From positions 1 to 56,082 of the forward strand of contig JASHNW010000091.1 in assembly GCA_030041435.1 (NCBI GenBank): 56,082 bases of DNA, given 5' to 3'. Each line of letters opens with the position of its first letter. Within the stretch, counting starts at the first letter, position 1. This document shows, piece after piece, positions 8,330 through 56,082 of this stretch. The position numbers were made by a program, and so were the translations under genes. The notes below the pieces were generated by a model. It was not told the DNA's origin, did no database searches, and was given only the letters and a program-made list of their open reading frames with translations. This DNA is from Acidobacteriaceae bacterium. GTDB lineage: Bacteria; Acidobacteriota; Terriglobia; Terriglobales; Acidobacteriaceae.

Positions 8330-8333
8330 CGAC

Positions 8334-9797: not shown

Positions 9798-10202
9798 CTA
9801 AACCTTCCTCCCAATCCGGAGGTTGTGCGCGTCCACCGCGGCAATAAAATTCAGCAACCCCGCCACCACCACGAACTTGGTTCCGTAGTCGGCCGTCACC
9901 AGTTGCACGGTGGGCTGCCCCAGGCTGAAGATGCGCGCGATCATGTATAGAACGCCCGTCCCAATGTCCCCGACAAACCCCAGCATGTCCAGCGGCTCAC
10001 CGGTATTTGGCGTGTAGACCTTGGCCTGCATTGCCAGCCCCAGCACGAACATCGCCGTAATTACCAGGAACAGCAGCAAGGCGCGCACCCAGTGCCGCGT
10101 CAGCAGATGTCCTGCGCCGGGGATCAGCCACCCCAGCAGGAGTGCCGAATACGTGGAGCTCTTGGTTTGTTGTTGTACGGGGGTCTGCGCTCGCGAAGCC
10201 AT
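9798..10202 (-). CDS. Conserved membrane protein, DUF6677-like
   Basis: 134-residue inner-membrane protein. After a short polar N-terminus comes ALLLGWLIPGAGHLLTRHW, a pattern shared with small TM2/DUF6677-type proteins of acidobacteria. Then come a second helix (ALLLFLVITAMFVLGLAM), a glycine-rich region (DMLGFVGDIGTGVLYMIAR) and a last helix (FVVVAGLLNFIAAVDAHNL). The family assignment is from memory of the motif. Function is unknown. The stop directly precedes the start of the 59-residue membrane protein, so both are likely one operon running leftward from the gene-poor region at 10.2-11.0 kb. Confidence 0.75.
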   Translation of the reverse strand: MASRAQTPVQQQTKSSTYSALLLGWLIPGAGHLLTRHWVRALLLFLVITAMFVLGLAMQAKVYTPNTGEPLDMLGFVGDIGTGVLYMIARIFSLGQPTVQLVTADYGTKFVVVAGLLNFIAAVDAHNLRIGRKV

Positions 10203-37005: not shown

Positions 37006-37098
37006 CTGTGGCGCCTGTCCGGATCGTCTGGCATCGACCTTGGCAGCTCGAGCAAATCATTGTTGCATAACGGCGCCGATGCAAAGCAATTCGGGAAG

Positions 37099-38004
37099 AT
37101 GAGAGAACAGATGGAGTTGCAGGGTAGGGAAATCAGAAGGCGCGGCAGTCTGATCCGGGTGGCGTTTCTCGATGGGGAAGGCTACCAGTTTCTGGACGAC
37201 CCGGATGCCGGCGTGGCGGCTCTGCGAAAGTTGAGGCGCCGGTTCGATCTGTTCACGTTCATCCAGAACCTCAGCGACACCACGCCGAGATTTGCATACC
37301 CGATAGAGTGGGATAACCTCGCGGCGCTCAAGGTGACCACGTTCGAAAGCTGGATGAAGAATCAAATCGACTTCAAGGCCAGAAATAAAGCGCGTAAGGC
37401 GGCCAAGGCTGGGGTCGAGGTTCGTGAAGCCGTCTACGATGACGACTTTGTGCGTGGGATCTCGGAGATCTACAACGAATCGCCCATCCGGCAGGGCAAA
37501 CCGTTTTGGCACTACAAAAAGGAGATCGAAGCGGTACGCCGGATGAATGCGACGTTCACGGATCGCAGCATCTTCATAGGCGCCTTCTTCGAAGGTCGTC
37601 TCATCGGCTTCGTGAAGCTGGTCGCGAACGAGGACTGGAGCCAGGCCGGCCTGATGCAAGTTGTGTCCATGTTCCGGCATCGCGAAAAGGCTCCGACCAA
37701 TGCACTCATCGCGCAGGCCGTCAAGTCGTGTGCCGATCGTGGGATCGCGCATCTCTGGTACGCTAACTACTCCTATGGAAAAAAGCAGGAGGATGGCCTG
37801 GCCGAATTCAAGCGCCACAATGGTTTTCAGAAGGTGGAAGTGCCCAGGTATTATGTGCCATTGACGATTGCTGGTCGCGTAGCCCTGAGGCTCGGCCTGC
37901 ACCACCAGGCTTCCGACTGGATTCCGGAACCGCTGACAAGTACCTACCGCAAAGTTCGCAGGATCTGGTTCGCGAAGCGTTTCCCAGGATTCGAGAACGC
38001 ATAA
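37099..38004 (+). CDS. FemAB/GNAT-like putative acyltransferase (paralogue 2)
   Basis: About 301 residues from the ATG at 37099; an in-frame TTG at 37060 and an ATG at 37111 are alternatives, and alignment with paralogue 1 supports a start near 37099-37111. Shared blocks: YPIEWDNLAALKVTTFESWM, ARNKARKAAKAGV, NESPIRQGKPFWHYKKEIE, FEGRLIGFVKLVANEDW, FKRHNGFQKVEVPRYYVPLT. It lies between the unknown membrane protein and the asparagine-synthase-like gene. Likely a GNAT-fold transferase acting on a sugar or lipid-linked unit; substrate unknown. Confidence 0.75.
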   Translation: MREQMELQGREIRRRGSLIRVAFLDGEGYQFLDDPDAGVAALRKLRRRFDLFTFIQNLSDTTPRFAYPIEWDNLAALKVTTFESWMKNQIDFKARNKARKAAKAGVEVREAVYDDDFVRGISEIYNESPIRQGKPFWHYKKEIEAVRRMNATFTDRSIFIGAFFEGRLIGFVKLVANEDWSQAGLMQVVSMFRHREKAPTNALIAQAVKSCADRGIAHLWYANYSYGKKQEDGLAEFKRHNGFQKVEVPRYYVPLTIAGRVALRLGLHHQASDWIPEPLTSTYRKVRRIWFAKRFPGFENA

Positions 38005-38145: not shown

Positions 38146-40023
38146 ATGCCAGGAATCGCAGGATGCATTACCCGCCGCCGGCCGCAGGATGCTGAGGCCG
38201 ATGTGCGACAAATGGTGGAGACCTTGTGTCACGAGGACTTCTACACTGCGGGAGTCTGGTCGGAGGAGTCGCTGGGAGTCTATGCAGGCTGGGTCGCGCG
38301 GAAGGGCTCGTATGCCGATTCCATTCCGGTGCGCAACGAACGCGGCGACGTGATCCTCATTTTTTCAGGCGAGGAGTTCCCGGAGCCGAACGCGAAGGAG
38401 CAGCTCAGACAGCGCGGGCATGTGTTCAATTCCGGTGGGCCGTCCTGGCTGATGCACCATTACAAAGATTCGCCGTCGTTCCCTGCAAGTCTGAACGGAC
38501 GATTCCACGGATTGCTGGTCGACCTTTCCCGCTCCGTCGCGACGCTCTTCAACGACCGCTACGGAATGGGCCGAGTCTACTTTGCCGAGACGGAAGACGG
38601 GTTTTACTTTGCCGCCGAGGCCAAGGCGATTCTGGCCGTCCGTCCTGAACTCCGGCGGGCAGATTATCGAAGCCTGGGGGAGTTCGTCTCCTGTGGCGCA
38701 GTTCTGGAGAACCGGACGCTCTTCGAGGGGATCAACCTCTTGCCGGCTGCGTCCGCGTGGGTGTTTCGAAACGGCGCGCTGGCGGGGAAGAGCACGTACT
38801 TCGATCCGCGAGAATGGGAGGAACAGGAACGACTCCGTCCGGAGGATTACTACCAAGAGCTCCGCAGGATCTTCACACAGAACCTCCCTCGATATTTCGC
38901 GGGAAGCGAGCGTATCGGGATGTCCCTGACGGGCGGCCTGGACACGCGCATGATCCTCGCCAACTGCAAGCCCGAGCCGGGATCGCTTCCCTGCTATACG
39001 TTTGGCAGCATGTACCGGGAAAATCAGGATGTCCGCGTGGCTCGCCGCGTGGCGCAAGTCTGCGGGCAGTCTCATCAGGTGATCACGGCCGGCAACGATT
39101 TCCTGTCGCAGTTTTCCGATTACGCCAGGCGCGCGGTGTATCTCACCGACGGCTGCGTAGATGTGGGTCGCGCCCCCGATCTCTATCTGAACGAGCGGGC
39201 ACGGGAGATTGCTCCGGTGAGGATGACGGGAAACTACGGCGGGGAAGTGTTGCGGGGAGTCGTTGCATTCAAGCCCACGGAGCCCACCGCAGGTCTGTTC
39301 TGTCCGGAATTTCAGTCCTGGATTCGTCAGACGGCGGAGACCTATTCCGGAATCACTCGTTGCCATCCGGTTTCGTTTGCGGTTTTCAGACAAGCTCCAT
39401 GGTATCTGTACGGCGTGCTGTCTTTGGAGCAGGCACAACTCTCGATGCGCTCTCCCTATCTCGATAACGATTTCGTCCGCACTGTCTTTCGCGCACCCAT
39501 GTCCAAGCTGGCCAGTAATGAGGTGTCAATGCGTCTCGTTGCCGACGGGAACCGGGAACTGCTCAGGATCCAGACCGACCGCGGTCTGGCCGGAGATCGG
39601 GGCCGGCTCGCGCAAACAGTCTGTCGGGGATATCTGGAGTTCCTGTTCAAGGCAGAGTACGCATACGATATGGGCATGCCGCAGTGGCTCGCCCGGCTGG
39701 ATCACGCCGGCTCGGCGTTGCACCTCGAGCGGATATTCTTAGGACGACACAAGCCTTTTCATTTCCGCGTGTGGTACCGCGATGCACTTGCCGGGTACGT
39801 GCAGGAGATGCTGCTTGACGCGCGCAGCCTGACTAGACCCTACATTGAGAGAAAGGGACTTGAGGTAATGGTGCGCGGCCACCTCACGGGCAATCGAAAT
39901 TACACCACCGAACTTCACAAGGCGCTGACGCTGGAGCTTGTTCACCGGCTCTTTCTGGACAGCCCGATAGATGTCCGGGAAAAGGAATATGAGGATCACA
40001 CCTTCTCCCGGTCAGCATGCTGA
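38146..40023 (+). CDS. Asparagine-synthase-like protein lacking the glutaminase cysteine
   Basis: 625 residues. The N-terminus MPGIAGCI aligns with the glutamine amidotransferase start MCGIAG, but Pro replaces the nucleophilic Cys2. The N-terminal domain keeps LNGRFHGLLVDLSR and FNDRYGMGRVYFAE. The synthase domain begins near YYQELRRIFTQNL with an ATP-pyrophosphatase loop SLTGGLDTRMI (about 265-275, usual SGGxDS). Proteins of this type recur in EPS loci, where they may amidate uronates using free ammonia or adenylate another carboxylate. Role inferred. Its stop codon directly abuts the stop of the convergent beta-helix gene. Confidence 0.85.
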   Translation: MPGIAGCITRRRPQDAEADVRQMVETLCHEDFYTAGVWSEESLGVYAGWVARKGSYADSIPVRNERGDVILIFSGEEFPEPNAKEQLRQRGHVFNSGGPSWLMHHYKDSPSFPASLNGRFHGLLVDLSRSVATLFNDRYGMGRVYFAETEDGFYFAAEAKAILAVRPELRRADYRSLGEFVSCGAVLENRTLFEGINLLPAASAWVFRNGALAGKSTYFDPREWEEQERLRPEDYYQELRRIFTQNLPRYFAGSERIGMSLTGGLDTRMILANCKPEPGSLPCYTFGSMYRENQDVRVARRVAQVCGQSHQVITAGNDFLSQFSDYARRAVYLTDGCVDVGRAPDLYLNERAREIAPVRMTGNYGGEVLRGVVAFKPTEPTAGLFCPEFQSWIRQTAETYSGITRCHPVSFAVFRQAPWYLYGVLSLEQAQLSMRSPYLDNDFVRTVFRAPMSKLASNEVSMRLVADGNRELLRIQTDRGLAGDRGRLAQTVCRGYLEFLFKAEYAYDMGMPQWLARLDHAGSALHLERIFLGRHKPFHFRVWYRDALAGYVQEMLLDARSLTRPYIERKGLEVMVRGHLTGNRNYTTELHKALTLELVHRLFLDSPIDVREKEYEDHTFSRSAC

Positions 40024-41598: not shown

Positions 41599-41981
41599 TT
41601 TAAATCGTCCTCACTTCGACAAAAATATGAATCGATCCTCTCAGATCAGAGGCCCAACAGGAGTATCGACGACACTGTGTTACTTTAGCAAGCATTCTGA
41701 AGCGTTACCATGGTTACTTGAGTAACCGCATTATGCCGTTTCCAACAAGAACGTCGTGGTCGGGACACCAGCTTTGATCGCGGAAACTGTGATGGTAAGG
41801 GATTTGCAATCAATATCTTATTGAGCAATGGTATCCTGTGACCCGACGCACAGCTCCCGGAGTGGCCCGAGTTGAACGGTTCGTTAGAACGTTCGTCGGA
41901 ATTGCCGGAGATTCCTGGCTTTGCTATGCTCACACGGCCGAACGTAGGACGACCGCCGCTTTGGGGCTCACGTGGACAACC
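41599..41981. promoter_or_regulatory. Divergent region upstream of the beta-helix gene and the decayed GT2 copy
   Basis: No intact gene in about 380 bp. A 7-bp inverted repeat with two-base centre is at 41712-41727 (GGTTACT/AGTAACC), about 115 bp upstream of the beta-helix start and overlapping a second partial palindrome (ACCATGGT). A possible operator. From about 41821 on, the sequence belongs to a repeated module (see repeats). Confidence 0.45.
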
Positions 41982-42361
41982 ATGAAACCCCTCGTATTAA
42001 TTCTCATTTCCGCCTATAACGCCGAACGATGGGTCGCTGATGCTATCCAGCCTGCGATTCGCCAGACCCGGCAGCGCAAGGAGATCATCGTCGCGGACGA
42101 TGGTTCGACTGATCGCACTGCGGATATCGTGAAACAATTCGGGTCGAAAATCAAACTGGTCTCAACGGAAAACGGCGGTCTGTGCGCCGCGGTCACAGGA
42201 TTCGGGCGGCAGATGGCAACCATCTGACTGGGCGTAGGCAAAAGGGTCCTCCTTTCGCCTACATGGGCTCACTTTTCTTATCGAACCCGGTCGGTCTCTT
42301 GTTGAGGAATTGAGGCCTATAAGCGGATGCAAAGGTCCCGGAATGGCCCGAGTCGAACGGC
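41821..42361 (+). repeat. Duplicated intergenic module (two copies 480 bp apart)
   Basis: About 60 bp at 41821-41881 recurs at 42301-42361. The best part is TCCCGGARTGGCCCGAGTYG followed by AACGGYT, 24 of 27 bases identical. Each copy lies upstream of a gene start (decayed GT2, methyltransferase). The stretch about 41885-41981 is also similar to about 43185-43283 upstream of the intact GT2 gene. Confidence 0.75.
41982..42290 (+). pseudogene. Decayed copy of the GT2 glycosyltransferase 5' end
   Basis: From the ATG at 41982 the translation runs MKPLVLILISAYNAERWVAD and is nearly identical to the start of the intact gene at 43284, through KIKLVSTENGGLCAAV. Then a net 69-bp deletion relative to the intact copy removes the QELDADDILVP region (the DAD acceptor motif). 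A stop codon follows at about 42225, and recognisable similarity fades near 42290 (TTATCGAACCCG shared). The homology also reaches upstream of the start. A partial tandem duplication that has decayed. Confidence 0.9.
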
Positions 42362-43283: not shown

Positions 43284-44318
43284 ATGAAACCTCTCGTATC
43301 GATTCTTATTCCTGCCTATAACGCCGAGCGATGGGTCGCCGATGCGATCCAGTCCGCGATTCGCCAGACCTGGCAGCGCAAGGAGATCATCGTCGTGGAC
43401 GATGGTTCGACGGATCGCACTGCGGATTTCGCGAAGCAGTTCGGGTCGAAAATCAAACTGGTCTCAACAGAAAACGGCGGCCTGTGTGCGGCGGTCAACC
43501 ATGCCTACCGGCTCAGCCAGGGGGACTACATCCAGGAACTGGATGCGGACGATATTCTGGTGCCAGACAAGATCGAGCGGCAGATAGCAGCAATGCGCCC
43601 AGGCGACAGCAAAAGAATCCTTTTTTCTTCGCCGTGGGCCCGCTTTTATTATCGAACCCGAAAAGGGAGATTCATTTCCAACTCGCTGTGCCGGGACCTT
43701 TCTCCGGTTGAGTGGCTGTTAGCCAAAATGGGCGAAAACCTGCACATGCAAAATGCAACCTGGCTGGTGAGCCGGGAGCTGGCTGAAACGGCAGGACCAT
43801 GGGACACGCGGCTACACTATGATCAGGACGGCGAGTACTTTGACCGGGTCCTTTTGGCTTCCGCGGGAGTCCGCTTTGTACCCGGAACCGGAGTCTATTA
43901 CCGGGCGAGCGGTGCGGGCAGCATCAGCACGATTGGCAACTCCAACAGGAAAAGGGATTCGTTGCTCCTGTCGATGAAGCTGCACATCCAGTACCTGCGC
44001 TCGCTCGAGGACAGCGAGCGCGTCCGAAAGGCCTGCCTGACCTATCTCCAAAACTGGTACGGTGTCTTCTATCCCGAGCGGCCGGATTTGGTCAAAGAGC
44101 TGCAGGCGTTGGCCGCGGAGCTCGATGGTCACCTGGAGACGCCCCGTCTTCGCTGGAAATATGCGTGGATGACGCCTGTGTTCGGGTGGAAGGCGGCTAA
44201 ATCGGCTCAGGATGTCCTCCCGCAACTCAAAGCAGCATGCGTGAGGCAAATTGACAGGATGATGTACCGATGGGAAGTGAACCCAGTGCCGGCAGACCAG
44301 CAGATCACGGCATCCTGA
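43284..44318 (+). CDS. GT2-family glycosyltransferase
   Basis: 344 residues from the ATG at 43284, where the GT-A fold starts (VSILIPAYNAERWVADAIQS). Nucleotide contact VVDDGSTDRTADF, metal/donor motif QELDADDILVPDKIE, and a C-terminal acceptor region (LHYDQDGEYFDRVLLASAGV). It adds a sugar on the cytoplasmic face. A truncated copy of its 5' end and upstream region lies 1.3 kb upstream. Confidence 0.92.
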   Translation: MKPLVSILIPAYNAERWVADAIQSAIRQTWQRKEIIVVDDGSTDRTADFAKQFGSKIKLVSTENGGLCAAVNHAYRLSQGDYIQELDADDILVPDKIERQIAAMRPGDSKRILFSSPWARFYYRTRKGRFISNSLCRDLSPVEWLLAKMGENLHMQNATWLVSRELAETAGPWDTRLHYDQDGEYFDRVLLASAGVRFVPGTGVYYRASGAGSISTIGNSNRKRDSLLLSMKLHIQYLRSLEDSERVRKACLTYLQNWYGVFYPERPDLVKELQALAAELDGHLETPRLRWKYAWMTPVFGWKAAKSAQDVLPQLKAACVRQIDRMMYRWEVNPVPADQQITAS

Positions 44319-45761: not shown

Positions 45762-47288
45762 ATGGCCGTTTCCCAACCATTGCTAAACGCTTTCAGCACC
45801 GACCATTTGCAGGCGGACCTCACGGGCCGATCCGTTCGCGGCGGGTTGCTGACACTTACGTCACAGGGCGCGCAGTTTGTCATGCAATCTGTCTCGACCA
45901 TAGTGCTGGCGCATATGCTGCTGCCAGCGGATTTTGGTCTTGTCGCCATGGTTACTGCAATTACGGGTCTGGGACAAGCCTTTGCTGATCTGGGACTCTC
46001 CGAAGCTACCATCCAGCATCCGGAAATCGATCACCACCAGGTCAGCAATTTATTCTGGATTAATGTTCTGATTGGTCTGGCGCTCACAAGCGTCACCGCC
46101 GCCATGGCGCCCGTGTTTGTTTGGTTTTATCACCAGGCGCGGCTTCGGGAAATCACATACCTGATCTCCCTCACTTTTCTCATCGGCGGCCTCCGCGTGC
46201 AGCACGACGCGCTTCTCAAGCGTCAGATGCGATTTACGGCTCTGGCTATTCGGGACGCAGCTGCCTATGCGGTAGCGGTTCCTGTCGCCATCACCATGGC
46301 CTGGCGCGGCGCGGGATACTGGGCAATCGTTGCTCTTCCATTGGCGTTAAACACGACGCAAATGGTTCTCTCCTGGGTGCTCGTCCCCTGGATACCTGGC
46401 CTGCCCAAACGTGCCGCAAAAGTACGCTCGTTAATCACGTTTGGAGGCAGTGTTGCTACGTCTTATCTGACCTTCAGCCTTACTCGCAGCGCCGACAGCG
46501 TCTTAATCGGATGGTATTGGGGAGCCGGTCCGCTGGGACTGTACTCACGAGCTATGAATTTGCTGTTGCTGCCCGTGAGGCAACTGGGCGCCCCCGCCCG
46601 AAGTGTTGCCATCCCTGGTTTCAGCAGAGTGCAGGACGATCCACCACGGCTGGCGCGGTATTTTCTGCGAACCTCCAACCTCATCATGTGGATTACGGCT
46701 CCCATATTCGGCTTCCTGTTCGTCGCTGCCACGCCGGTCATCGTCCTCGCACTCGGACACAAATGGCAGGCGGCCGCTCCGGTCTTTCAGCTCCTTGCGA
46801 TTTTTGCCCTTGGGCAGCTTCTCTTTGAGTCGACGATTTGGCTGATTGTGAGTCGCGGAGAGTCGCGCCGGCTTTTGACGCTGGCCCTGATCGTCAGTCC
46901 GATCACAATTGCCAGCTATGCAATCGGTCTTCCCTTCGGGATAAAAGGTGTTGCGCTGTCTGGAGCGCTTGTCATGCTTGTCATCTTCCCCTGGATCCTC
47001 AGATTCAGTTTTCGTGGCACAGATCTGACACTGCAGAATCTTGGAAGGAGCATTCTCGTACCACTGGTAACCTGTTTCGCGGGTGTCGCGTGCGGGGAGG
47101 TAGGGCTTCACCTGGCGGCGCACGCTCCCATAGTGCCGCAGCTCTTGGTAATCGCTTTGGCATTCGCTCTGGGGTGTGCACTTACGCTCCTTGTTTCGGC
47201 GGTTCGAGGGGAAGTAAAAGCGCTGGTGGATTTGTTACGCGGCGCGCGTGCCATGTCCTCAATCCAGCTGGTCGAGAGTCTGGACTAA
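45762..47288 (+). CDS. Wzx-type polysaccharide flippase (MOP superfamily)
   Basis: 508-residue inner-membrane protein with about 12-14 helices. The start SVRGGLLTLTSQGAQFVMQS and VLAHMLLPADFGLVAMVTAI are typical of lipopolysaccharide flippases of the WzxC/MviN type. Further blocks: DSVLIGWYWGAGPLGLYSRA, LLPVRQLGAPARSVAIPGFS, VLALGHKWQAAAPVFQLLAI. It would flip undecaprenyl-linked repeat units to the periplasm for the Wzy-like protein. The epimerase gene starts 8 bp after its stop. Confidence 0.93.
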   Translation: MAVSQPLLNAFSTDHLQADLTGRSVRGGLLTLTSQGAQFVMQSVSTIVLAHMLLPADFGLVAMVTAITGLGQAFADLGLSEATIQHPEIDHHQVSNLFWINVLIGLALTSVTAAMAPVFVWFYHQARLREITYLISLTFLIGGLRVQHDALLKRQMRFTALAIRDAAAYAVAVPVAITMAWRGAGYWAIVALPLALNTTQMVLSWVLVPWIPGLPKRAAKVRSLITFGGSVATSYLTFSLTRSADSVLIGWYWGAGPLGLYSRAMNLLLLPVRQLGAPARSVAIPGFSRVQDDPPRLARYFLRTSNLIMWITAPIFGFLFVAATPVIVLALGHKWQAAAPVFQLLAIFALGQLLFESTIWLIVSRGESRRLLTLALIVSPITIASYAIGLPFGIKGVALSGALVMLVIFPWILRFSFRGTDLTLQNLGRSILVPLVTCFAGVACGEVGLHLAAHAPIVPQLLVIALAFALGCALTLLVSAVRGEVKALVDLLRGARAMSSIQLVESLD

Positions 47289-47296: not shown

Positions 47297-48250
47297 ATGT
47301 CAACACGGAAAACCGCTTTTGTTACTGGTTCGGATGGCTTTATTGGGTCCCATCTTGTACGCTTTCTTCATGCCAAAGGCTGGGATGTTATCGGTGGCGT
47401 TCTGCGACACCCCCGTAGGTCGTCTCTCGACGGGGGGCAACCGCGATTTGTATCGTGCGATCTCCGCGACGGAAAACGCCTGAAGCGAGTCCTTTCGCAG
47501 TACAACCCGACGCACGTCTTTCATCTCGGAGCACAGAGCCTTCCGACCGTATCATGGGCCGATCCCGTAGGTACATTCGAGTCGAACATCATGGGCTCGC
47601 TGTACCTGTTCGAGGCGGTACGCTCCATGGACACCCCCCCGGTCGTGGTTTCCGCTTGTTCAAGCGCCGAATATGGAAATGTTCCGCCCTCAGCCATCCC
47701 CGTCACCGAAGAGCAGCCGCTGCGGCCCCTGCATCCTTACGGAATCAGCAAAGTTTGCCTGGATTTGCTGGCCCGGGAGTATTTTCTCGACTACAAGATT
47801 CCGGCCGTCAATTTGAGACTGTTCAACACAACAGGACCTGGCAAGACCAATGACGCGCCTTCCGACTTCGTGCGTCAGCTGGCCAAGATCACAAAGGGAC
47901 TGCAAGCGCCGGTCATTGAAGTTGGCAATCTGAAGCCTCGTCGGGCGTTCTTGGATGTCAGAGACACCGTTCGCGGCTTTTATCTCGCGGCAACGAAAGG
48001 CAAGCCCGGCGAGTCGTACAACCTGTGCGCCTCATCGACGCGTGAAATCGGAGAGCTCTTGCGGACTGCGATCCGGCTATCCGGCGTGCAGGTAGAGATC
48101 CGGCCCTCTGCTCACCTGATGCGGCCCTCTGATGAAAAAATCATCTTCGGCAGCACCAAAAAAATCCGCAGAGACACCGGCTGGGAACCAGTGTTGTCCC
48201 TGGAGGAAACACTGTCCTCGATGTTGAGGTACTGGGAAGCCAGATTCTGA
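47297..48250 (+). CDS. NAD-dependent sugar epimerase/dehydratase (GDP-mannose dehydratase/RMD-like)
   Basis: 317 residues from the ATG at 47297. Extended SDR: FVTGSDGFIGSHLVRFLHAK (cofactor loop), FHLGAQSLPTVSWADP, VVSACSSAEYGNV and the catalytic pair in HPYGISK (Tyr148/Lys152), then NLRLFNTTGPGKTNDA and RRAFLDVRDTVRGF. The NTTGPGKTNDAPSDF block resembles GDP-mannose 4,6-dehydratase and GDP-6-deoxy-4-keto reductase proteins, so a 6-deoxyhexose product is possible. Directly follows Wzx (8 bp) and is likely cotranscribed with the acyl cassette downstream. Confidence 0.88.
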   Translation: MSTRKTAFVTGSDGFIGSHLVRFLHAKGWDVIGGVLRHPRRSSLDGGQPRFVSCDLRDGKRLKRVLSQYNPTHVFHLGAQSLPTVSWADPVGTFESNIMGSLYLFEAVRSMDTPPVVVSACSSAEYGNVPPSAIPVTEEQPLRPLHPYGISKVCLDLLAREYFLDYKIPAVNLRLFNTTGPGKTNDAPSDFVRQLAKITKGLQAPVIEVGNLKPRRAFLDVRDTVRGFYLAATKGKPGESYNLCASSTREIGELLRTAIRLSGVQVEIRPSAHLMRPSDEKIIFGSTKKIRRDTGWEPVLSLEETLSSMLRYWEARF

Positions 48251-48303: not shown

Positions 48304-49077
48304 ATGAAAGCAATGGAGAACGGGCTGTTTTCTTTGAGTCACAGATCGTATCTGGTCACTGGAGGCACACGGGGCATTGGCCAGGCGATTTCGCTCCGCT
48401 TTGCGCGAGCGGGTGCCACGGTGATCGCAAACTATCTCCGTAACGAAAAGTCCGCGGAACAGTTGATGGCGATTGCAGCCGGCGAGAACCTCAATATCAC
48501 GCTGTGCCGCGCGGATCTGACCAGCGAGCGAGGCCTCGAACAACTGAATATCTGTCTGGAAGAGCGGAGTCCTGCTCTCTCAGGCATGGTTCATTGTGCT
48601 GCCACAGGGATTCACCGCCGCGTCGAAGAACTCACGGAGCGCCATTTTGACTGGACGATGAACCTGAATGTGCGAGTCTTCTTCCAGCTGGTGAAACTTC
48701 TTCTGGGGCGATTCACAGCAAGCTCAAGCGTCGTGGCCGTCAGTTCCTGGGGAGCACTGCGGGCCCTCCCATACTACTCTCTCGTAGGATCCTCCAAAGG
48801 TGCTCTGGAGGCACTCGCGCGACATTTCGCTGTCGAGCTGGCGCCGCGCGGTGTCCGCGTCAATATTCTGAGAGCCGGCGCGGTGCTGACCGACGTCTGG
48901 AAGGCGCTACCGGACAGCGCAGCACGAATTGAAGAGACTCTCCGCCGCACTCCGGCAGGACGCCTGGTTACAGTCGAGGAAATTGCCTCCGGCGCACAGT
49001 TCCTTTGCTCCGACGCAGCTGCAGGCATCATCGGACAGACGCTCGTGATTGATGGCGGCGCGGGAATCCTGGCCTGA
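48304..49077 (+). CDS. FabL-like enoyl-[acyl-carrier-protein] reductase (SDR family)
   Basis: 257 residues. The NAD(P) loop YLVTGGTRGIGQAISLRFA is classical SDR, but the active site is Tyr-x6-Lys (YSLVGSSK, Tyr158/Lys165), the spacing of FabI/FabL enoyl reductases and not the Tyr-x3-Lys of ketoreductases. The motif RHFDWTMNLNVR and the end GQTLVIDGG also resemble Bacillus FabL. It would reduce an enoyl-ACP double bond. First gene of the acyl cassette and 110 bp before the ACP gene. A ketoreductase function is less likely because the position four before Lys is Val. Confidence 0.82.
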   Translation: MKAMENGLFSLSHRSYLVTGGTRGIGQAISLRFARAGATVIANYLRNEKSAEQLMAIAAGENLNITLCRADLTSERGLEQLNICLEERSPALSGMVHCAATGIHRRVEELTERHFDWTMNLNVRVFFQLVKLLLGRFTASSSVVAVSSWGALRALPYYSLVGSSKGALEALARHFAVELAPRGVRVNILRAGAVLTDVWKALPDSAARIEETLRRTPAGRLVTVEEIASGAQFLCSDAAAGIIGQTLVIDGGAGILA

Positions 49078-49186
49078 GTTTTGCTGGAAGGATGCCCGGT
49101 GCTCCAAATTCACGCTTGACCCGACGTGCAACCCAAGGGACAATCGTTCAACAATTCCGACTCCAAGCAGGTATGTGAAAGATCAA

Positions 49187-49441
49187 ATGAGCGACTCGGA
49201 TTACATCCTGAACAAGGTCCGGGAGGCGTTTGCCGCCTCCTTCGAAATTATCCCGAATATGGTCACATTAGAGACCAGTGCAAGTGACATCCCAGGGTGG
49301 GATTCCGTTGGCCATTTATCGCTCGCCAGCAATCTCGAACAGATCTTCGGGATCAACCTGGACGTCGATGAGCTGATCGAAATGGAGAATGTCCGCGAGA
49401 TCGTGCGCATCGTGGCGGCGAAAATTCCCAGGAACGTGTGA
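49187..49441 (+). CDS. Acyl carrier protein
   Basis: 84 residues from the ATG at 49187. Four-helix ACP with the phosphopantetheine serine in IPGWDSVGHLSLASNLEQ (Ser40) and acidic helix II/III (FGINLDVDELIEMENVREI). The usual DSL is DSV here, as in many dedicated ACPs of secondary pathways. The ligase gene starts 1 bp after its stop, so the pair is translationally coupled and the ligase probably loads this carrier. Confidence 0.92.
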   Translation: MSDSDYILNKVREAFAASFEIIPNMVTLETSASDIPGWDSVGHLSLASNLEQIFGINLDVDELIEMENVREIVRIVAAKIPRNV

Positions 49442-49442
49442 C

Positions 49443-50933
49443 GTGGACTCCAGCGCCAACTGCAACTTTGCCAGTCGGCTGGCAGAGCGCCTCGGACCGC
49501 ATTCGCACCTGATCGATGCAGCCACCGGACGTACGATTGAGCCGGCGGCGGTGCGCTGCCTCATTCCTGCGTGCGGCTCAGCATTGATCGCGTCGGGCTT
49601 GAGGCAGGGCGATCGAGTACTGATCGGCTGCTCCTTATCGCCCGCCAGCGCTCTAGTCTACCTGGGGGCGATCTATGCCGGCCTTGTAGCGGTGCCCGTG
49701 GAAGACCGCGTTCTGGCAACCTCCGCAGCTGCCTTCGTGGCCGCCACGGGAGCCAGGGCCGTCTGGAACGAAACGGGTCTGGCATGGGGAGAGGCTGGCA
49801 ACGGTTCCGTCATCCTCCTGCAGGGTGACCTGTCCATGGGATCCGCTGAGCTCAGGCCCGCGGCGGCCTGCGCAGCGTCTGACCTGGCGGCCCTCATGGC
49901 TACCTCAGGTTCGACAGGGGTTCCCAGATTTGTGATGGTGACCCACGGGAACCTGATCGCCAACACCGAAGCGATCGTCCGCAGCCAGCGGCTGGGCACG
50001 GGCGAACGGGCGATGATGATCCTCCCGGTGAACTACTGTTTCGGCGCGAGTCTGCTCCACACCCATCTCTATCAGGGTGGCGGCGTCGTTTTTGACCGGC
50101 GGTTCATGTTTCCGGACAAGGTTCTCCAGGCCATGACTGATTTCGGCTGCACCACGTTCGCCGGCGTGCCCACTGTCTACAATGTGCTGCTGCGCCGGTC
50201 GGGCATTCGGCAGGCTTCACTGCCCTGCTTGCGGCGTTTTCTCCAGGCCGGTGGAGCTCTGGCACCGGGAAAGATCGATGAGATGCGTGCCATCTTTCCG
50301 CTGGTGCCGTTCTATGTAATGTACGGACAGACCGAAGCGACCGCACGAATATCGTGCATGGAATCGGAACGCTGGGAAGAGAAGCCGGGAAGTGTTGGGC
50401 GCCCATTGGATAATCTGACCGTCTCGATCGTGGACGAAGCAGGAAGTGAATTGCCTCCTGGACAGATTGGCGAACTGCTCGCCTGCGGACCCTCCATATG
50501 CGCCGGGTACTGGAACGACCCGGACGAAACCTCTCGCGTCTTCCACGACGGATGGCTACGCACCGGCGACCTGGCGCGTCAGGACGAGGAAGGCTATCTG
50601 TGGATCGAAGGACGCAGAGGAGCATTCCTGAAGATCCGCGGAACCCGCATCAGTTTTGCAGAAGTGGAAGGAAGAGTCGCTGCGATGACGGGAGTCTATG
50701 AGTGCGGCGCCTGCGCCGTCCAGCATCCCGATGCGGGAGAGGCTCTGGCCCTGCTGATTGTGCCCGATCAGGGATCGCGCGTCGATCCCGATGAGATTCG
50801 CCGCGGACTTCCCGCGCACTGGACTCTTGATTCCATTCGCATGGTCTCGGAATTGCCGAAGACATCTTCGGGAAAGCTGGCGCGCTCCATGCTCGCCGCC
50901 TGGGCAAAGGACGGCCATGCAGCCATTGCATGA
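49443..50933 (+). CDS. AMP-forming acyl-CoA/acyl-ACP ligase
   Basis: 496 residues from a GTG one base after the ACP stop. ANL superfamily: phosphate loop LMATSGSTGVPRFVMVTHGN (about 153-172), FYVMYGQTEATARIS (A5), GWLRTGDLARQDEEGYLWIE (A7), GRRGAFLKIRGTRIS (A8) and the catalytic Lys in PKTSSGKLARSML (A10). It adenylates a carboxylic acid and passes it to the ACP next door (inference from coupling) or to CoA. The substrate specificity pocket cannot be read. It overlaps the LuxE-like gene by 17 bp. Confidence 0.92.
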   Translation: MDSSANCNFASRLAERLGPHSHLIDAATGRTIEPAAVRCLIPACGSALIASGLRQGDRVLIGCSLSPASALVYLGAIYAGLVAVPVEDRVLATSAAAFVAATGARAVWNETGLAWGEAGNGSVILLQGDLSMGSAELRPAAACAASDLAALMATSGSTGVPRFVMVTHGNLIANTEAIVRSQRLGTGERAMMILPVNYCFGASLLHTHLYQGGGVVFDRRFMFPDKVLQAMTDFGCTTFAGVPTVYNVLLRRSGIRQASLPCLRRFLQAGGALAPGKIDEMRAIFPLVPFYVMYGQTEATARISCMESERWEEKPGSVGRPLDNLTVSIVDEAGSELPPGQIGELLACGPSICAGYWNDPDETSRVFHDGWLRTGDLARQDEEGYLWIEGRRGAFLKIRGTRISFAEVEGRVAAMTGVYECGACAVQHPDAGEALALLIVPDQGSRVDPDEIRRGLPAHWTLDSIRMVSELPKTSSGKLARSMLAAWAKDGHAAIA

Positions 50934-52041
50934 AAAGATAGACCACCTGCTGTCGATGCCTCCTTATGATCAGTCGCCCGCCGAACGAGAGGCAGCTCTG
51001 CTCGAATTACTGAAGGAGGAGCTGGACTACGCATGCGAGCGGCACGCCGGCTATAAGAGCTATGTCGAGCACTGGCCGGTAAGCTATCGATCCGCTGCCC
51101 GCATCAGCGACCTGCCTTTCCTGCCGGTGGGCATGCTCAAGGCCAATCCGCCTCTGTCCTTCGTGGGCACGGACGAGGTCAGGAGGACTTTGACCTCCAG
51201 CGCCACCACGTCGCAGGCGCCCAGTCGCGTCGTGCTCGATGCTCCGACCTCGCGGCGTATGACCAAGGGGACGGTCGTGATTGTCCGCGACTTTATCGGC
51301 CCTGCGCGAAGGCCGTACCTTGTCGTCGATACTCCGGACCAGAAGGCAAATGGCAATGGGCTGGGGGCGCGCGGCGCGGCGATTCAGGGATTGCAGCCAT
51401 TTGCGTCCGAAACAACCTACTGCCTCGGCGTCAGCGATCAGGGCGACCTGACTCTCGATCTGGAGAAATTGAAGCAGTTTGCCGCGACGCACAAGGGCGC
51501 TGAGCTGCTGATCTACGGCTTCACTTACATTCTGTGGAACCACTTCGCGAAGCCTCTGATGGCCAAAAACATCTGTCTCGATCTGCAAAATGTTCGCATC
51601 CTGCACAGTGGCGGCTGGAAGCGATTGCAGGATCAGGCGGTGGAGAAATCTGTTTTCAACCAGCAGCTGGCCCAAGTTGTCGGCTGTTCCACTGACTGCA
51701 TTGTTGACTTCTATGGCATGGTCGAGAGCGTGGGAGTTATCTTTCCCGATTGCCCTGAAGGCAACAAACATGGACCCGTGTTTGGCGCAGTCATTGTCCG
51801 CGATCCGCTGACGCTGGAACCGGTTCCTGCGGGAGGCTACGGCATTGTCCAGGTCTGCAGTGTTCTGCCCACTAGCTTTCCAGGTAACCTGCTGCTCACC
51901 GAGGACATGGCGCAGGTGATTGCCTATGACGGATGCCCCTGCGGAAGGCGCGGCATCAGTTTCCGCTTTGCCGGCCGCATACCGAGGGCAGAACTTAGAG
52001 GTTGCGGAAATATCGAGACCAAACGGTCAGCGATGAACTGA
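50917..52041 (+). CDS. LuxE-like acyl-protein synthetase
   Basis: 374 residues from the ATG at 50917, overlapping the ligase gene by 17 bp. LuxE/PaaK-type adenylating protein: LPFLPVGMLKA, TLTSSATTSQAPSRVVLD (phosphate loop), LILYGFTYIL-type strand, ILHSGGWKRLQDQAV, DFYGMVESVGVIFPDC and a C-terminal CPCGRRG with CRIPRAEL-type end. In luminous bacteria LuxE activates a fatty acid and passes the acyl group to LuxC for reduction to aldehyde. LuxC is the next gene here (15 bp). No luciferase gene (luxAB) is in the window. Confidence 0.9.
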   Translation: MQPLHEKIDHLLSMPPYDQSPAEREAALLELLKEELDYACERHAGYKSYVEHWPVSYRSAARISDLPFLPVGMLKANPPLSFVGTDEVRRTLTSSATTSQAPSRVVLDAPTSRRMTKGTVVIVRDFIGPARRPYLVVDTPDQKANGNGLGARGAAIQGLQPFASETTYCLGVSDQGDLTLDLEKLKQFAATHKGAELLIYGFTYILWNHFAKPLMAKNICLDLQNVRILHSGGWKRLQDQAVEKSVFNQQLAQVVGCSTDCIVDFYGMVESVGVIFPDCPEGNKHGPVFGAVIVRDPLTLEPVPAGGYGIVQVCSVLPTSFPGNLLLTEDMAQVIAYDGCPCGRRGISFRFAGRIPRAELRGCGNIETKRSAMN

Positions 52042-52056
52042 GGCCTGATTATCTTG

Positions 52057-53313
52057 ATGACTGCGCTTCAACAGAATGTAAGTTCGCCCGCGGAGATCTC
52101 CTTTGCGGCGGCACGCCTGCGGCAGGCCGTCCAGGATAAAGAGCTCTCGCCGAATGATGTCCTGGCGGTTTTCGATGTCTGGGCAAAGAGCCTGGACGAC
52201 CGCGAGCTCGACGAGATACCAGGGATTGTTTTCCTCCGCATGTGGCTGAGGCGCGGAACTCTCGAGCCGATCATTGCGCGCGAACTCGGACCTAATGCTC
52301 TGAATGCCGGCTGGAGCGATTCCGGACGTGCCCGTTGCAGAGCTTTTCCCCTGGGTGTTGTGGGCCACTGGCCCGCCGCCAACGTGGAGATCCAGCCCCT
52401 TTTATCGATGACCTGCGCTCTGCTGGGCGGCAATGCCTCGCTGGTTCGCATCCCTCGCAGCCTGGCCGCTCTCACGCAGCCGTTGATCGACAGACTGGTT
52501 CGGAGCGATCCGGAAGGAATCCTTACGTCGCGTATTTTCATGGCGGCTTTTGAGCATGGCAGGCGCGACCTGCATGAAGCAATGGCTCAAGCCGTCGATG
52601 GAGCCATGATCTGGGGTGGACAGGAGGCCGTCTTGCAGGTCCGTGCGCTGCCATTTCCCCACTGGGCTCGCCTGGCGGTCTTTGGACCGAGGATATCCGT
52701 CGCAGCGATGGACGCGGCCGCCTGGAGCGATCTGCAGGAGCGCGAGTCCTGGTGCCGGCGCCTCGCGCGTGACGTCTGGCAGTTCGATCAGCAGGCGTGC
52801 TCCTCACCGCAGGTTCTGTTCCTTGAGCGAGACTCGAATCGTTCCTCTGCGGAGTTCGTTCAGTTTCTTCGGCGGGCTTTCGAATCTGAAAACCAGGCGC
52901 ATCCGCGCAGAACCATTCCTGCTGGGCTGACTTCGGCGATCACGCTGGCGCGCGCATCCTGGCTGCTGCAGGACTCGACGCACAGCGCGGTCTTTCCCTT
53001 GAGCCCGGACTGGACGCTGCTGCTTGGTTCCGGATCGGATATTCCGCAGCCCACGCAGGGCAAAACCCTCACGGTCCTCGAAGTGGATAACCTACTGGAG
53101 CCGGTTTCTAAGTTCGATGGCAACGTACAGACGCTGGGTTTGGGCGTCTCCGACACGGAAAAAGAAAGGGAAATTACGCGGACCGCCGGGAAAAAAGGCG
53201 TTGACCGCATTGTGAAACTGGGGCGTATGCACGTATTCGTGCCTCCGTGGGACGGATCTGATCTGATCCGCCCCATGGTTCGCATGGTTCGTCATGTCAG
53301 CTCTCTTGATTGA
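52057..53313 (+). CDS. LuxC-like acyl-CoA/acyl-protein reductase
   Basis: 418 residues from the ATG at 52057 (TTG at 52054 also possible). Aldehyde-dehydrogenase-like fold of the LuxC family: FPLGVVGHWPAANVEIQPLL, CALLGGNASLVRIPRS, MIWGGQEAVLQVRAL and the catalytic cysteine in DQQACSSPQVLFLE (Cys248). C-terminal RIVKLGRMHVFVPPWDG is also family-typical. It reduces an acyl group delivered by LuxE to the aldehyde with NADPH. Tight spacing to LuxE and to the methyltransferase gene (32 bp) supports one pathway. Confidence 0.92.
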   Translation: MTALQQNVSSPAEISFAAARLRQAVQDKELSPNDVLAVFDVWAKSLDDRELDEIPGIVFLRMWLRRGTLEPIIARELGPNALNAGWSDSGRARCRAFPLGVVGHWPAANVEIQPLLSMTCALLGGNASLVRIPRSLAALTQPLIDRLVRSDPEGILTSRIFMAAFEHGRRDLHEAMAQAVDGAMIWGGQEAVLQVRALPFPHWARLAVFGPRISVAAMDAAAWSDLQERESWCRRLARDVWQFDQQACSSPQVLFLERDSNRSSAEFVQFLRRAFESENQAHPRRTIPAGLTSAITLARASWLLQDSTHSAVFPLSPDWTLLLGSGSDIPQPTQGKTLTVLEVDNLLEPVSKFDGNVQTLGLGVSDTEKEREITRTAGKKGVDRIVKLGRMHVFVPPWDGSDLIRPMVRMVRHVSSLD

Positions 53314-53345
53314 GCACAGCGACGACGCAATCCTCAGGAGAAACT

Positions 53346-54245
53346 ATGAAAGATGCAACGGCATTTTTGAACAGCCTCGAAACGAAGGCCAGAATGTTTG
53401 CTCCCTCCGCTCGGTCAACCTACGAGGCGAACGAAGCGCTCTGCTCCTGGCTGCTCAATCCGCTCGCCCGCTGGGCCGATGGAGCCTATGGCGATCGGGC
53501 TTTCGACGATGCCGCTAAAGGTTACGCCAAATACTGCATGGGCGTCTGGAAATCCCAGCAGCAGTATGAAAAGGAAGGCCGCTACACGCCGGAGACGCTT
53601 CCGGAGCTGATCTCCGAGGTCTATGAGGATGAGGGCTACATGGTTCCTTATATGTGGGCTGCTATCCTCATTTATCCCTTCTGGCCTTCCATGGTCAGCC
53701 ACATCGAGCTCTATCGCGACGAGTTTCTCAAGGCCATTCCGGCCGGAGGCAAAATCCTCGAGGTGGCTTCCGGTCACGGCGTGATGGGCCTGCTTGCAGC
53801 CGAAACCCGGCCGGACATTCAGCTGCGCGGCTTCGATATCAGTCCGCCCGCCGTAGCCGTCTCTGATCGCCTCCTAGATATATCCGGACATCGCGACCGC
53901 GTGAGCTTTGCAGTCAAGGACGTCCTGAATCTCGAGACTTCAGGTGAACCGCGAACTTATCAGGGGATCATCGCCGCCATGCTGGCCGAACATCTGCAGG
54001 ATCCGCGGCCTCTCTTTGCCGTGCTGGGACATCACCTCGCGGATGATGGCCTCGTCTTCTTCAGCACCGCTCTGGAATCGGCTCAGCGCGACCATACCTT
54101 CGAATTTCATCAAGAGAGCGAACCGATCAAGCTGGCTGAAGAATACGGCCTGCGCGTCACACGGCTCGTGTGCGATGCCGGCGTACCCGTGCCCGGGGGC
54201 CGGTTTCTCCCTCGCGCCCTCGGAATGATCCTTCGCCGGCGATGA
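53346..54245 (+). CDS. Class I SAM-dependent methyltransferase of the acyl cassette
   Basis: 299 residues from the ATG at 53346 with AGGAG seven bases upstream. Motif I ILEVASGHGVMGLLAAE (about 137-153), LRGFDISPPAVAVSDRLL (motif II) and LAEHLQDPRPLFAVLGHHLA. The N-terminal 130 residues form an extra helical part (YMWAAILIYPFWPSMVSHIE). Likely O- or C-methylation of a product of the cassette. Not closely similar to the sugar-region methyltransferase at 42408. Confidence 0.87.
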   Translation: MKDATAFLNSLETKARMFAPSARSTYEANEALCSWLLNPLARWADGAYGDRAFDDAAKGYAKYCMGVWKSQQQYEKEGRYTPETLPELISEVYEDEGYMVPYMWAAILIYPFWPSMVSHIELYRDEFLKAIPAGGKILEVASGHGVMGLLAAETRPDIQLRGFDISPPAVAVSDRLLDISGHRDRVSFAVKDVLNLETSGEPRTYQGIIAAMLAEHLQDPRPLFAVLGHHLADDGLVFFSTALESAQRDHTFEFHQESEPIKLAEEYGLRVTRLVCDAGVPVPGGRFLPRALGMILRRR

Positions 54246-54318
54246 AGCGGGCATTGCCGTCAATGAATGTCTCACCACAGGGAACCTGTTCAGTACCCGC
54301 CGTGTGCATGACTCTCTT

Positions 54319-54759
54319 ATGATAATGACCTTTGAGGAAATAAAGTTACGCCTGAAGCAGCGATTTCCCCTGATAATGGTAGACAGGGTACTGGAGCTGG
54401 AGCCGGGGAAAAGCATCAAAACGCTGAAAAACGTCGCTGGCAATGAAATTCAATTCCTCGGACATTTCCCTGATTACTCCATCATGCCCGGAACTTCAAT
54501 TATCGAGGCCATAGGACAAAGCGCATCCATCCTTTTCAGCTACACCACCGGAAAAGGCATGGAGTCAAAGGAATTCATGGCCCTGGCAGCGGTCAACGAC
54601 ATGCGCTTTCTGCAGCCTGTGCTGCCAGGTTATACCATGGTGATGGACATCACCATTCTCAAGATGACCAACCAAGCCGCGCTCGTCGAAGGCGTCGCCC
54701 GCGTCGACGATACGATTATGACCCGAGGAAAGCTCAGTTTCGCAAGAATATCGGTGTGA
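54319..54759 (+). CDS. FabZ-like 3-hydroxyacyl-ACP dehydratase
   Basis: 146 residues from the ATG at 54319; this start gives FabZ-like numbering, His49 and Glu63, in the catalytic block FLGHFPDYSIMPGTSIIEAI. The beginning KQRFPLIMVDRVLELEPG and the end TMVMDITILKMTNQAALVEG complete the hot-dog fold. It removes water from 3-hydroxyacyl-ACP to give the enoyl-ACP that the FabL-like reductase could use. Located in the same direction after the methyltransferase, with a gene-free 317 bp downstream. Confidence 0.9.
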   Translation: MIMTFEEIKLRLKQRFPLIMVDRVLELEPGKSIKTLKNVAGNEIQFLGHFPDYSIMPGTSIIEAIGQSASILFSYTTGKGMESKEFMALAAVNDMRFLQPVLPGYTMVMDITILKMTNQAALVEGVARVDDTIMTRGKLSFARISV

Positions 54760-55076
54760 TCTATATATGGTTCTGGAAGAAGCGGGTGCAATCTATTCGA
54801 GCCAGTTTTGGGCAGGACAAATCGATGAAACGTCGATGTGGATTCTGAACACGAACGCATGCCTCCCGCATCGACACTACATGCATCCCGCGCCCTGACT
54901 CTCCGCCCTTGCGCTCCTGCCCGCACCTGAGTTTTCTCCGCGCTTTCTTGCGAGGCCGATCTCCATTCGCCCCAGTCTCAGCTATCCCTAATTTCTCCGT
55001 TCCGATTTTTTCCATAGACCTATCAATCAGCAGTCACTCCCGGTCGCATAATCGGCGACCCCCGACGCAACCACAC
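54760..55076. other. Intergenic region without recognised gene
   Basis: About 317 bp between the dehydratase and the hydrolase-fold gene. A frame open from 54909 runs into the hydrolase gene but has a low-quality N-terminus, so I start that gene at 55077. A promoter here is possible; none assigned. Confidence 0.4.
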
Positions 55077-55889
55077 ATGGATCCCATTCAGAGCACCCAC
55101 ACTTATCCCTCAGAACACGCCGCATACTTCCCGGTTCCAGGCGCGCACCTCTATACTGTTCTGCACTACGCTGTGGACCCTATTGCGCGTGTCATGCTTA
55201 TCGGTCCCTTTGCCTCGGAACGGCACTTTTCTTATCACCCCTGGGTCCGCTGGGCGCGCTATCTCAGCGCCCGGCATATTGAAGTACTCCGCTACGATTA
55301 TCGCGGAATCGGCGAGAGCACAGGCGATTTTGCGGAGCTGACCTTCACCCATTGGAGCGAAGATGTGCGGCTCCTCGGAGAGTGGCTGATACAGCGCTCT
55401 CCAAAGATCCCGCTCATCCTCCATGGCCTGGAGATCGGGGCTTTACTTGCCGTAAAGGCATTTGAACTCGGATTCGGTGATGGAATGCTTCTCTGGTCCG
55501 CTCCGCCGACGGCAAATCAAGCGCTACGTTCCAGTCTTCTCTTATGGGCAGGTTTGGAGCAAAAGTGGGAATCGTCAGAGAACCACCTGTCCGCGTCGGA
55601 ATATATTGATCAATTAGAGCAAGGATTCCCCATCGAGGTTCAAGGGTATCAGTGGCCGGCTCACCTCTGGCATGACTCTTTTGCGATTGAATTGCCAGCG
55701 GCAGTTAGAACTGACGATAGTTGGAGCACGATTTGCGGGAGGCCGGTTCTAAGTCTCGCGCTCGACAGACACGCGGCTCCTCTGGTCAAACCGCATGTTA
55801 TGTATCAGGACCTTCCTGATCTTGGATGGTTATACGCGAGGACTTTCGATTTTCTGAAAACACTTCTAAAGGAAGGATCCACAGCCTAG
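55077..55889 (+). CDS. Alpha/beta-hydrolase-fold protein without nucleophile serine (exosortase-A-associated hydrolase-like)
   Basis: 270 residues from the ATG at 55077. The fold is clear: VMLIGPFASERHFSYHPWVR, RHIEVLRYDYRGIGESTGDF, WSEDVRLLGEWL. The nucleophile elbow G-x-S-x-G is HGLEIGALL (Glu119 in place of Ser), so it is probably not a classical serine esterase. From memory, the hydrolase group linked to exosortase-A EPS loci also lacks Ser at this point (WGLRLGALL type). Probably an accessory of the acyl or EPS pathway. The IS630 fragment starts right after it. Confidence 0.75.
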   Translation: MDPIQSTHTYPSEHAAYFPVPGAHLYTVLHYAVDPIARVMLIGPFASERHFSYHPWVRWARYLSARHIEVLRYDYRGIGESTGDFAELTFTHWSEDVRLLGEWLIQRSPKIPLILHGLEIGALLAVKAFELGFGDGMLLWSAPPTANQALRSSLLLWAGLEQKWESSENHLSASEYIDQLEQGFPIEVQGYQWPAHLWHDSFAIELPAAVRTDDSWSTICGRPVLSLALDRHAAPLVKPHVMYQDLPDLGWLYARTFDFLKTLLKEGSTA

Positions 55890-55898
55890 TGTAGTGCG

Positions 55899-56082
55899 TC
55901 ATGCAGATTGCCGATTATTCTGAGCGGCGCGGGCACGCTTGACCTTCTCCAGTATGTCGGCGGCTTTGGCAGTCCAGATAAAGGGCTTGGGGTTGTCGTT
56001 GTGCTGGTCGATGTAGTCGAAGATCGCGGTGATCAGATCCTCGACACTGCGAAAGACTCCCCGGCGCAGGCGGTTTTCGGTC
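55899..56082 (-). mobile_element. IS630-family transposase, C-terminal part (cut by window edge)
   Basis: The minus strand, entered from the window edge, reads NRLRRGVFRSVEDLITAIFD, then YIDQHNDNPKPFIWTAKAAD and ILEKVKRARA, ending at a stop near 55899. FIWTAKAxDILEKV is the typical C-terminus of IS630 transposases. The upstream part and the terminal repeats lie outside or are not determinable; the element end is probably within about 20 bp of 55889. It marks the right boundary of the cassette in this window. Confidence 0.85.

Follow-up and report, generated by a model that had tools for sequence, protein, structure and literature searches.

The stretch of DNA analysed here (56,082 nucleotides, referred to as the window) is contig C30 of a 5.77-Mb Acidobacteriaceae genome in 134 contigs. 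Between positions 48304 and 55889 it carries eight reading frames, all on the + strand, and seven of these make up a conserved unit whose active-site residues are intact: a FabL-like short-chain dehydrogenase/reductase (SDR), an acyl carrier protein (ACP), an AMP-forming acyl ligase, LuxE, LuxC, a methyltransferase and a FabZ-like dehydratase. This seven-gene module appears to be horizontally mobile and to cross phyla. We see an even chance that the product of such a mobile module is a small acyl or aldehyde group, methylated and beta-deoxygenated, destined for a surface glycan.

LuxC and LuxE are best known from bioluminescence. Their presence in a compact, apparently cross-phylum module with a dehydratase and an enoyl-reductase-type SDR, often in polysaccharide loci, suggests an unexplored route to glycan decorations that starts from acids and proceeds by way of aldehydes. 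With it, the LuxC and LuxE genes of flagellin glycosylation islands would also gain a testable function.

Conservation of the cassette

A LuxC scan of genome contigs delivered 29 candidate stretches, of which 14 are relatives from four phyla, all labelled as metagenome-assembled genomes (MAGs). Two further relatives, found in genomes G120 (locus L028) and G343 (locus L027), brought the set to 16 loci, which were searched by tblastn with the window proteins. Wherever the contig reaches, the order ACP-ligase-LuxE-LuxC-methyltransferase-FabZ and its direction are kept in these loci, and the cassette proteins are 47-80% identical to those of the window. LuxE is found in 16 of 16 relatives. Among the relatives in which the other genes are testable, the ligase is present in 15 of 15 (L015 begins within LuxE), the ACP in 14 of 14 (L009 and L015 begin too late), the methyltransferase in 15 of 15 (L007 stops at LuxC) and FabZ in 14 of 14 (L007 and L013 stop too early). 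The SDR adjoins the cassette in 11 of 14. Two loci contain insertions: one extra gene, encoding an alpha/beta-hydrolase, between LuxE and LuxC in L012, and a non-ribosomal peptide synthetase (NRPS) gene between LuxC and the methyltransferase in L014. A preliminary description of this DNA, made from the sequence alone, had proposed a search for synteny in relatives and considered chance adjacency of the genes. Since the order is kept in loci from four phyla, chance adjacency is rejected.

The same description had included the eighth gene, which encodes a hydrolase-fold protein, in the set. The window hydrolase was matched by tblastn in none of the 16 relatives and is rejected as a member of the cassette.

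It is conceivable that two separate functions adjoin here, the ligase, ACP, SDR and FabZ serving one acyl group and LuxE, LuxC and the methyltransferase another. The two ATP-dependent activating enzymes in a single cassette would fit such a division. So would the Azospirillum and Pantoea plasmids, which carry LuxE- and LuxC-type genes but no annotated ACP or second ligase (the gene table is incomplete), and locus L031, which has an ACP, LuxE, LuxC and a methyltransferase-like protein and in which no ligase was detected. However, in every testable relative of the clade the two halves are interleaved in a single order, and the distances of the proteins correlate; we regard the division as very improbable.

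Cassette genes and family assignment

The gene set is confirmed as eight consecutive genes of one direction at the place given in the preliminary description, with corrected limits and with each Pfam match above its gathering score. The SDR (48304-49077; PF13561) may belong to FabL. It carries the Y-x6-K signature of enoyl-ACP reductases, and its family profile retrieves from the PDB one sequence at E<=1e-45, the enoyl-ACP reductase 3oic/3oid, which we take to be FabL; but the score of its best NCBIfam model, NF005975 (FabL), is 206 bits, below the cut-off of 328. A dedicated ACP follows at 49187-49441 (PF00550, 26.5 bits, cut-off 20.8). The ligase, the presumed ACP loader (49443-50933, GTG start; PF00501 and PF13193), has as its second-best NCBIfam model TIGR03098, the exosortase A system-associated ligase, at 244 of 592 bits. 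Its frame is overlapped by 17 bases by that of the LuxE-family acyl-protein synthetase (50917-52041; PF04443, 183.5 bits).

The LuxC-family acyl-thioester reductase, which would form the aldehyde, lies at 52057-53313 (PF05893, 181.9 bits) and is the single PF05893 match in the window's genome. This family is poorly specific, with matches in nine of 14 control genomes, seven of them above the cut-off. Against the PDB at E<=0.01, the LuxC clade profile retrieves the solved LuxC 7xc6_A only. The last two members are a class I S-adenosylmethionine (SAM)-dependent methyltransferase with an N-terminal helical domain (53346-54245; PF13489, 45 bits) and a FabZ-like 3-hydroxyacyl-ACP dehydratase (54319-54759; PF07977, 72 bits). 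The latter passes NF000582 (121 bits, cut-off 113) and misses TIGR01750 (123 of 155 bits).

The NCBIfam comparison covered the best 25 models per protein, and among the models listed for the eight proteins one FabZ model alone reaches its curated cut-off. With the cut-offs mostly missed, the gene names give fold and class of chemistry, not substrate. On the equivalog models LuxE reaches 62 of 550 and LuxC 66 of 750 bits. In luminous bacteria LuxC and LuxE act on fatty acids, which would favour a role in lipid tailoring, in which the cassette would supply a lipid of the membrane or outer membrane, or a lipid-linked glycan anchor, with a fatty aldehyde or alcohol. Yet both proteins fall far under the long-chain cut-offs, so the chain-length preference is not transferable, and among the cassette proteins Pfam finds neither a thioesterase of the LuxD type nor a lipid-type acyltransferase. 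We consider this role improbable.

Active-site residues

Residues were read from alignments of the cassette clade. The catalytic roles of the LuxC and LuxE cysteines, the ACP serine, the FabZ histidine and glutamate and the ligase lysine are known from their families. The LuxC cysteine is found in the motif FDQQAC in 14 of 14 sequences (window codon 52798-52800) and aligns with QQAC of 7xc6_A. Similarly, the C-terminal cysteine of LuxE, in RGC, is kept in 15 of 15 and aligns with KGC of the LuxE chain 7xc6_E. The ACP serine in WDS and the FabZ pair His46/Glu60 (numbered along the aligned window row) are each invariant (13/13), and the lysine of the C-terminal GK of the ligase is kept in 14 of 14. 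The SDRs of the cassette show Y-x6-K throughout (12/12). These alignments agree with the preliminary description, which had listed putative catalytic residues in the reductase, ACP, ligase, LuxC and dehydratase.

Y-x6-K is typical of enoyl reductases and Y-x3-K of ketoreductases. Outside the clade, Y-x3-K is found in the SDRs of L036 (Deinococcus), L029 and L033 (Rhizobium); those of Azospirillum and Pantoea fit both tyrosine/lysine patterns and are left out of these three.

Ketosynthase, luciferase and methyltransferase

Ketosynthase and FabH-type matches are present in the window's genome, on other contigs. Near the cassette, as the preliminary description had noticed, they are missing: one FabF and one FabH query against 28 locus records and the window gave a best E of 2.6. 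In control searches the FabF query found its own locus and a polyketide synthase (PKS), and the FabH query its own and a second FabH-type locus. A PKS query gave no match in the loci at E 1e-3. The idea of a ketosynthase hidden beyond the contig end was rejected, as none of the FabF/FabH type occurs in the fetched flanks of the relatives. A type II unit for fatty acid or polyketide synthesis would have a ketosynthase in the cluster, and none of the FabF/FabH type was found here. The reported absence of a luciferase likewise holds, with no Pfam match among the cassette proteins.

An AlphaFold2 model of the methyltransferase (mean predicted local distance difference test score, pLDDT, 78.5) resembles small-molecule methyltransferases. 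Template modelling (TM) scores are 0.43-0.57 among the 50 matches listed (1477 at E<=0.001), and the matches include Fur6, MfnG, DsyB and the alpha-keto-acid C-methyltransferases SgvM and MrsA. These predicted fold similarities give the class and not the substrate; a small-acid substrate would fit but is not proven.

Genomic neighbourhood

Upstream of the cassette and on the same strand lie a family-2 glycosyltransferase (43284-44318), a Wzx-type flippase (45762-47288; PF13440, 263 bits) and an NAD-dependent sugar epimerase/dehydratase (47297-48250; PF16363, 212 bits). The Verrucomicrobiota locus L013 encodes a protein 66% identical to this glycosyltransferase, roughly 1 kb upstream of its cassette, a hint that cassette and glycan may travel together.

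The neighbourhoods were scanned with Pfam through 60 flanking proteins from our own gene calls, one of them from the outgroup L029, covering part of the flanking frames. Clear polysaccharide genes accompany the cassette in the window and in nine of the 16 relatives, in line with the exopolysaccharide setting first described for the window. Family-2 glycosyltransferases occur with a Wzx-like protein and an epimerase in L006 (dTDP-epimerase) and L008, with PIG-L in L013 and with a GNAT-fold protein in L027. The others have Wza and an ATPase (L005), an exosortase and PIG-L (L011), a sugar transferase (L014), a glycosyltransferase and heparinase (L018) and a Wzz-kinase (L028). A hexapeptide-like protein directly precedes the SDR of L006 (26.3 of 27 bits) and has homologs in L007 and L008; L006 also carries an MBOAT protein.

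Among the other seven relatives, the polysaccharide signal is weak or none in L007 (6 kb), which contains the hexapeptide-like homolog, in L009, with NRPS and cytochrome P450 neighbours, and in L010 and L012, with a hexapeptide protein and a second ligase and SDR. L017 has a sulfotransferase and Lon, one of the three proteins scanned in L016 is a chemoreceptor, and L015 (6 kb) is counted here with its neighbours unscanned.

Some of the relatives' surroundings deserve description. The NRPS gene inside the cassette of L014 (11278-16536, about 1750 residues, on a 436-kb Proteobacteria MAG contig) encodes, as read by eye from the translation, condensation, adenylation, methyltransferase, peptidyl carrier and thioesterase domains (C-A-MT-PCP-TE). 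In L009 the cassette is followed on the - strand (5514-10061) by a condensation domain, a P450 and an A-PCP protein, also read by eye, possibly a small-molecule cluster. Lastly, a second conserved set stands beside the cassette on the opposite strand in L010 (13418-16651) and L012 (11164-14117). It comprises a hexapeptide protein, an AMP-ligase, an SDR and a small protein, which are 75-87% identical between the two loci.

Because two loci have NRPS genes within the cassette or next to it, some weight has to be given to a secreted small molecule (an aldehyde, an alcohol or an acyl-amino acid) made by a cassette that merely resides in mobile, variable polysaccharide islands. The second ligase/SDR sets of L010 and L012 and the resemblance of the modelled methyltransferase to natural-product methyltransferases would also suit such a product. 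On the other hand, polysaccharide genes are found in the window and nine relatives, and an exporter that recurs was not seen in the 60 scanned proteins, although no exporter-directed search was made. Furthermore, related five-gene sets are placed in flagellin glycosylation islands by the passages on these islands in PMC7874193 and PMC4875605, and stand beside glycosyltransferases in Deinococcus. On balance we find a secreted small molecule rather unlikely.

Some other parts of the window were recorded. The alpha/beta-hydrolase-fold protein next to the cassette (55077-55889, +; PF12146) has the nucleophile elbow G-L-E-I-G, with no serine, and its nearest NCBIfam model is TIGR03101 (67.6 bits, below the cut-off of 202.75); it is possibly not a hydrolase. 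The contig ends within a transposase-like frame (55890-56081, - strand, recognised by eye), the insertion sequence element of the preliminary description. A short frame at 41838-42227 repeats the N-terminal part of the glycosyltransferase at 43284-44318 and is apparently, as judged by eye, a truncated duplicate. Two FemAB-like proteins, recognised by eye and without an NCBIfam match, and an asparagine-synthase-like amidotransferase (28977-29945, 37060-38004 and 38146-40023) suggest aminoacyl and amide decorations in the polysaccharide locus.

Spread and inheritance

The cassette is patchily distributed. Three of 150 relatives gave a match (the window's own genome, G047 and G120); G047, of the same family, has its match at the same place as L006, an Acidobacteria MAG contig. 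Within the phylum, three of 297 genomes gave a match: the genome itself, G343 of the cassette clade and G150, whose LuxC is distant. In the class of L017 (369 genomes) the seed stood alone, and the phyla of L011 (194 genomes) and L016 (198) each gave the seed and one distant LuxC. Few candidates were scored per genome (at most six for most of the 297-genome set, up to four to nine in the sets of 369, 194 and 198), so these counts are lower bounds and absence is not firm.

Midpoint-rooted trees of LuxC (16 rows), LuxE (17 rows) and the methyltransferase (16 rows) have the same main split. One group contains the window, L005-L008 (L007 without methyltransferase), L010, L012 and the Syntrophobacteraceae locus L016; the other contains L009, L027, L028, two Verrucomicrobiota loci and the Pseudomonadota loci. 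Pairwise distances among five cassette proteins correlate at 0.71-0.92. Shared organism history would also yield such a correlation, but Acidobacteriota stand on both sides of the split, which makes transfer as a block the simpler reading of these trees. Errors in MAG binning could mislead this reading.

Proposed function

In the proposed scheme, the ligase would load a small 3-hydroxy (or sugar- or amino-acid-derived) carboxylic acid onto the dedicated ACP. The carbon skeleton would come from this starting acid, because no ketosynthase is near. FabZ would then dehydrate the bound acid and the Y-x6-K reductase would reduce the enoyl product, so that the beta-oxygen is removed, and the methyltransferase would add a methyl group. 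LuxE would take over the acid, and its reduction by LuxC would give an aldehyde. The completed group, acyl or aldehyde, would be used for a building block of the glycan, and an acyltransferase of the hexapeptide or MBOAT type encoded close to some of the cassettes might make the transfer. The cassette would thereby work like an extended version of the five-gene set of flagellin islands, to which an enoyl-reductase-type SDR, FabZ and a methyltransferase have been added.

Several points weigh against this scheme, whose substrate, product and reaction order we infer. A FabZ and an enoyl reductase without a ketosynthase are odd, as fatty acid synthesis already supplies saturated acids, and the ligase and LuxE, being two activating enzymes, may serve two acids. 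In three relatives (L016, L018 and L028) no SDR was detected next to the cassette, so the reductase is not obligatory; in L018, moreover, LuxC is in three pieces and the FabZ match is partial. A strict pairing of FabZ with Y-x6-K is broken by L033, where FabZ occurs with a Y-x3-K SDR. Seven of the 16 relatives show no clear polysaccharide gene among the proteins scanned, no acyltransferase adjoins the cassette in the window, and the NRPS genes of L014 and L009 point elsewhere than to a glycan. Finally, 14 of the relatives are MAGs, whose taxon labels depend on binning.

The earlier interpretation, which had an acid loaded on the ACP, dehydrated and reduced, passed to LuxE and LuxC and possibly used to decorate the polysaccharide, is partly supported: this holds for the conserved unit, the residues, the aldehyde-forming LuxE/LuxC pair, the lack of a ketosynthase and the polysaccharide genes, while its reaction order and the fate of the product stay conjectural. 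The hydrolase has to be removed from it, and half of its claim to novelty.

Comparison with known systems

Bioluminescence systems share LuxC and LuxE with the cassette, including both cysteines (7xc6). They differ in LuxD and the LuxAB luciferase, which Pfam did not find among the eight proteins of the cassette region and their two upstream neighbours. The cassette has a dedicated ACP and ligase instead, and its LuxC and LuxE miss the equivalog cut-offs by far. Bioluminescence is rejected on the absence of luciferase and LuxD from the cassette proteins.

Exosortase A (XrtA/PEP-CTERM) loci are known with a TIGR03098 ligase and TIGR03100/TIGR03101 hydrolases, and the window has relatives of the XrtA-type chain-length protein (258 of 279 bits), ATPase (279 of 325 bits) and kinase, below the cut-offs. 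Its ligase and hydrolase-fold protein also score below the TIGR03098 and TIGR03101 cut-offs. There is no exosortase on the window contig, unlike in L011; the sole match in the genome is in a separate locus on contig C34 (12134-12901, L046). C34 (51.4 kb) was considered as a possible continuation of the window; its first 20 kb contain the exosortase, and the last 192 bases of the window do not recur in them.

Plasmids gave 49 records with a LuxC match, all below 60% identity and at 24-29% in the 30 listed; the Azospirillum and Pantoea neighbourhoods combine LuxE- and LuxC-type genes with an SDR. On a plasmid of Rhizobium leguminosarum (L033), an ACP-like protein, an AMP-binding protein, LuxE, LuxC, SDR, FabZ and a methyltransferase stand together as in the window. 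Unlike there, the genes are on two strands, the SDR has Y-x3-K, LuxC is 25% identical, the methyltransferase gives no tblastn match to that of the window at E 1e-3, and transketolase proteins, a GMC oxidoreductase and an LpxA-like acyltransferase are present. The transketolase proteins are two in number, and a transketolase could take an aldehyde as acceptor.

On a plasmid of Deinococcus sp. NW-56 (L036) and in L029, from the phylum of the window, ACP, SDR, AMP-ligase, LuxE and LuxC are contiguous as in the window. Glycosyltransferase and sugar-transferase genes lie just upstream of the five genes in L036, and a hexapeptide protein follows LuxC in L029. Compared with the window, LuxC is 26-31% and LuxE 38-40% identical, the SDR has Y-x3-K, and tblastn gave no FabZ or methyltransferase match.

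The same five functions, contiguous in the window, constitute a gene set in the flagellin glycosylation islands of Aeromonas group II and enterobacteria (PMC7874193, PMC4875605). By description rather than sequence, this set shares with the cassette five of seven functions and the setting in a glycan locus. In the passages on these islands the ACP is listed before the reductase, no SAM methyltransferase is named as part of the set, FabZ appears in one enterobacterial strain only (PMC4875605), no product is named and no ketosynthase is mentioned. The reductase is a ketoreductase by annotation only (3-oxoacyl-ACP reductase), compared with Y-x6-K throughout the window clade, and the set belongs to flagellin loci, with their pse and flagellin genes, whereas the window cassette stands in an exopolysaccharide locus, where the neighbours scanned are polysaccharide genes. 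Any link between the five-gene set and the 102-Da moiety on the flagellin glycan of Aeromonas piscicola AH-3 is speculation. Distinctly doubtful, too, is the wider proposal of a new glycan-decoration chemistry, in which an ACP-bound hydroxy acid would be beta-deoxygenated and methylated and a LuxE/LuxC aldehyde would enter a surface sugar, while the five-gene relative, without deoxygenation, would explain the 102-Da moiety.

The preliminary description knew of no pathway with this exact set. A literature search, mainly outside subscription journals, found no description of the seven genes together, but the five-gene core is described in the islands discussed above and lies near glycosyltransferases in Deinococcus. 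The general kind of system is already known, and the version with FabZ, a methyltransferase and a Y-x6-K SDR is new to our literature searches.

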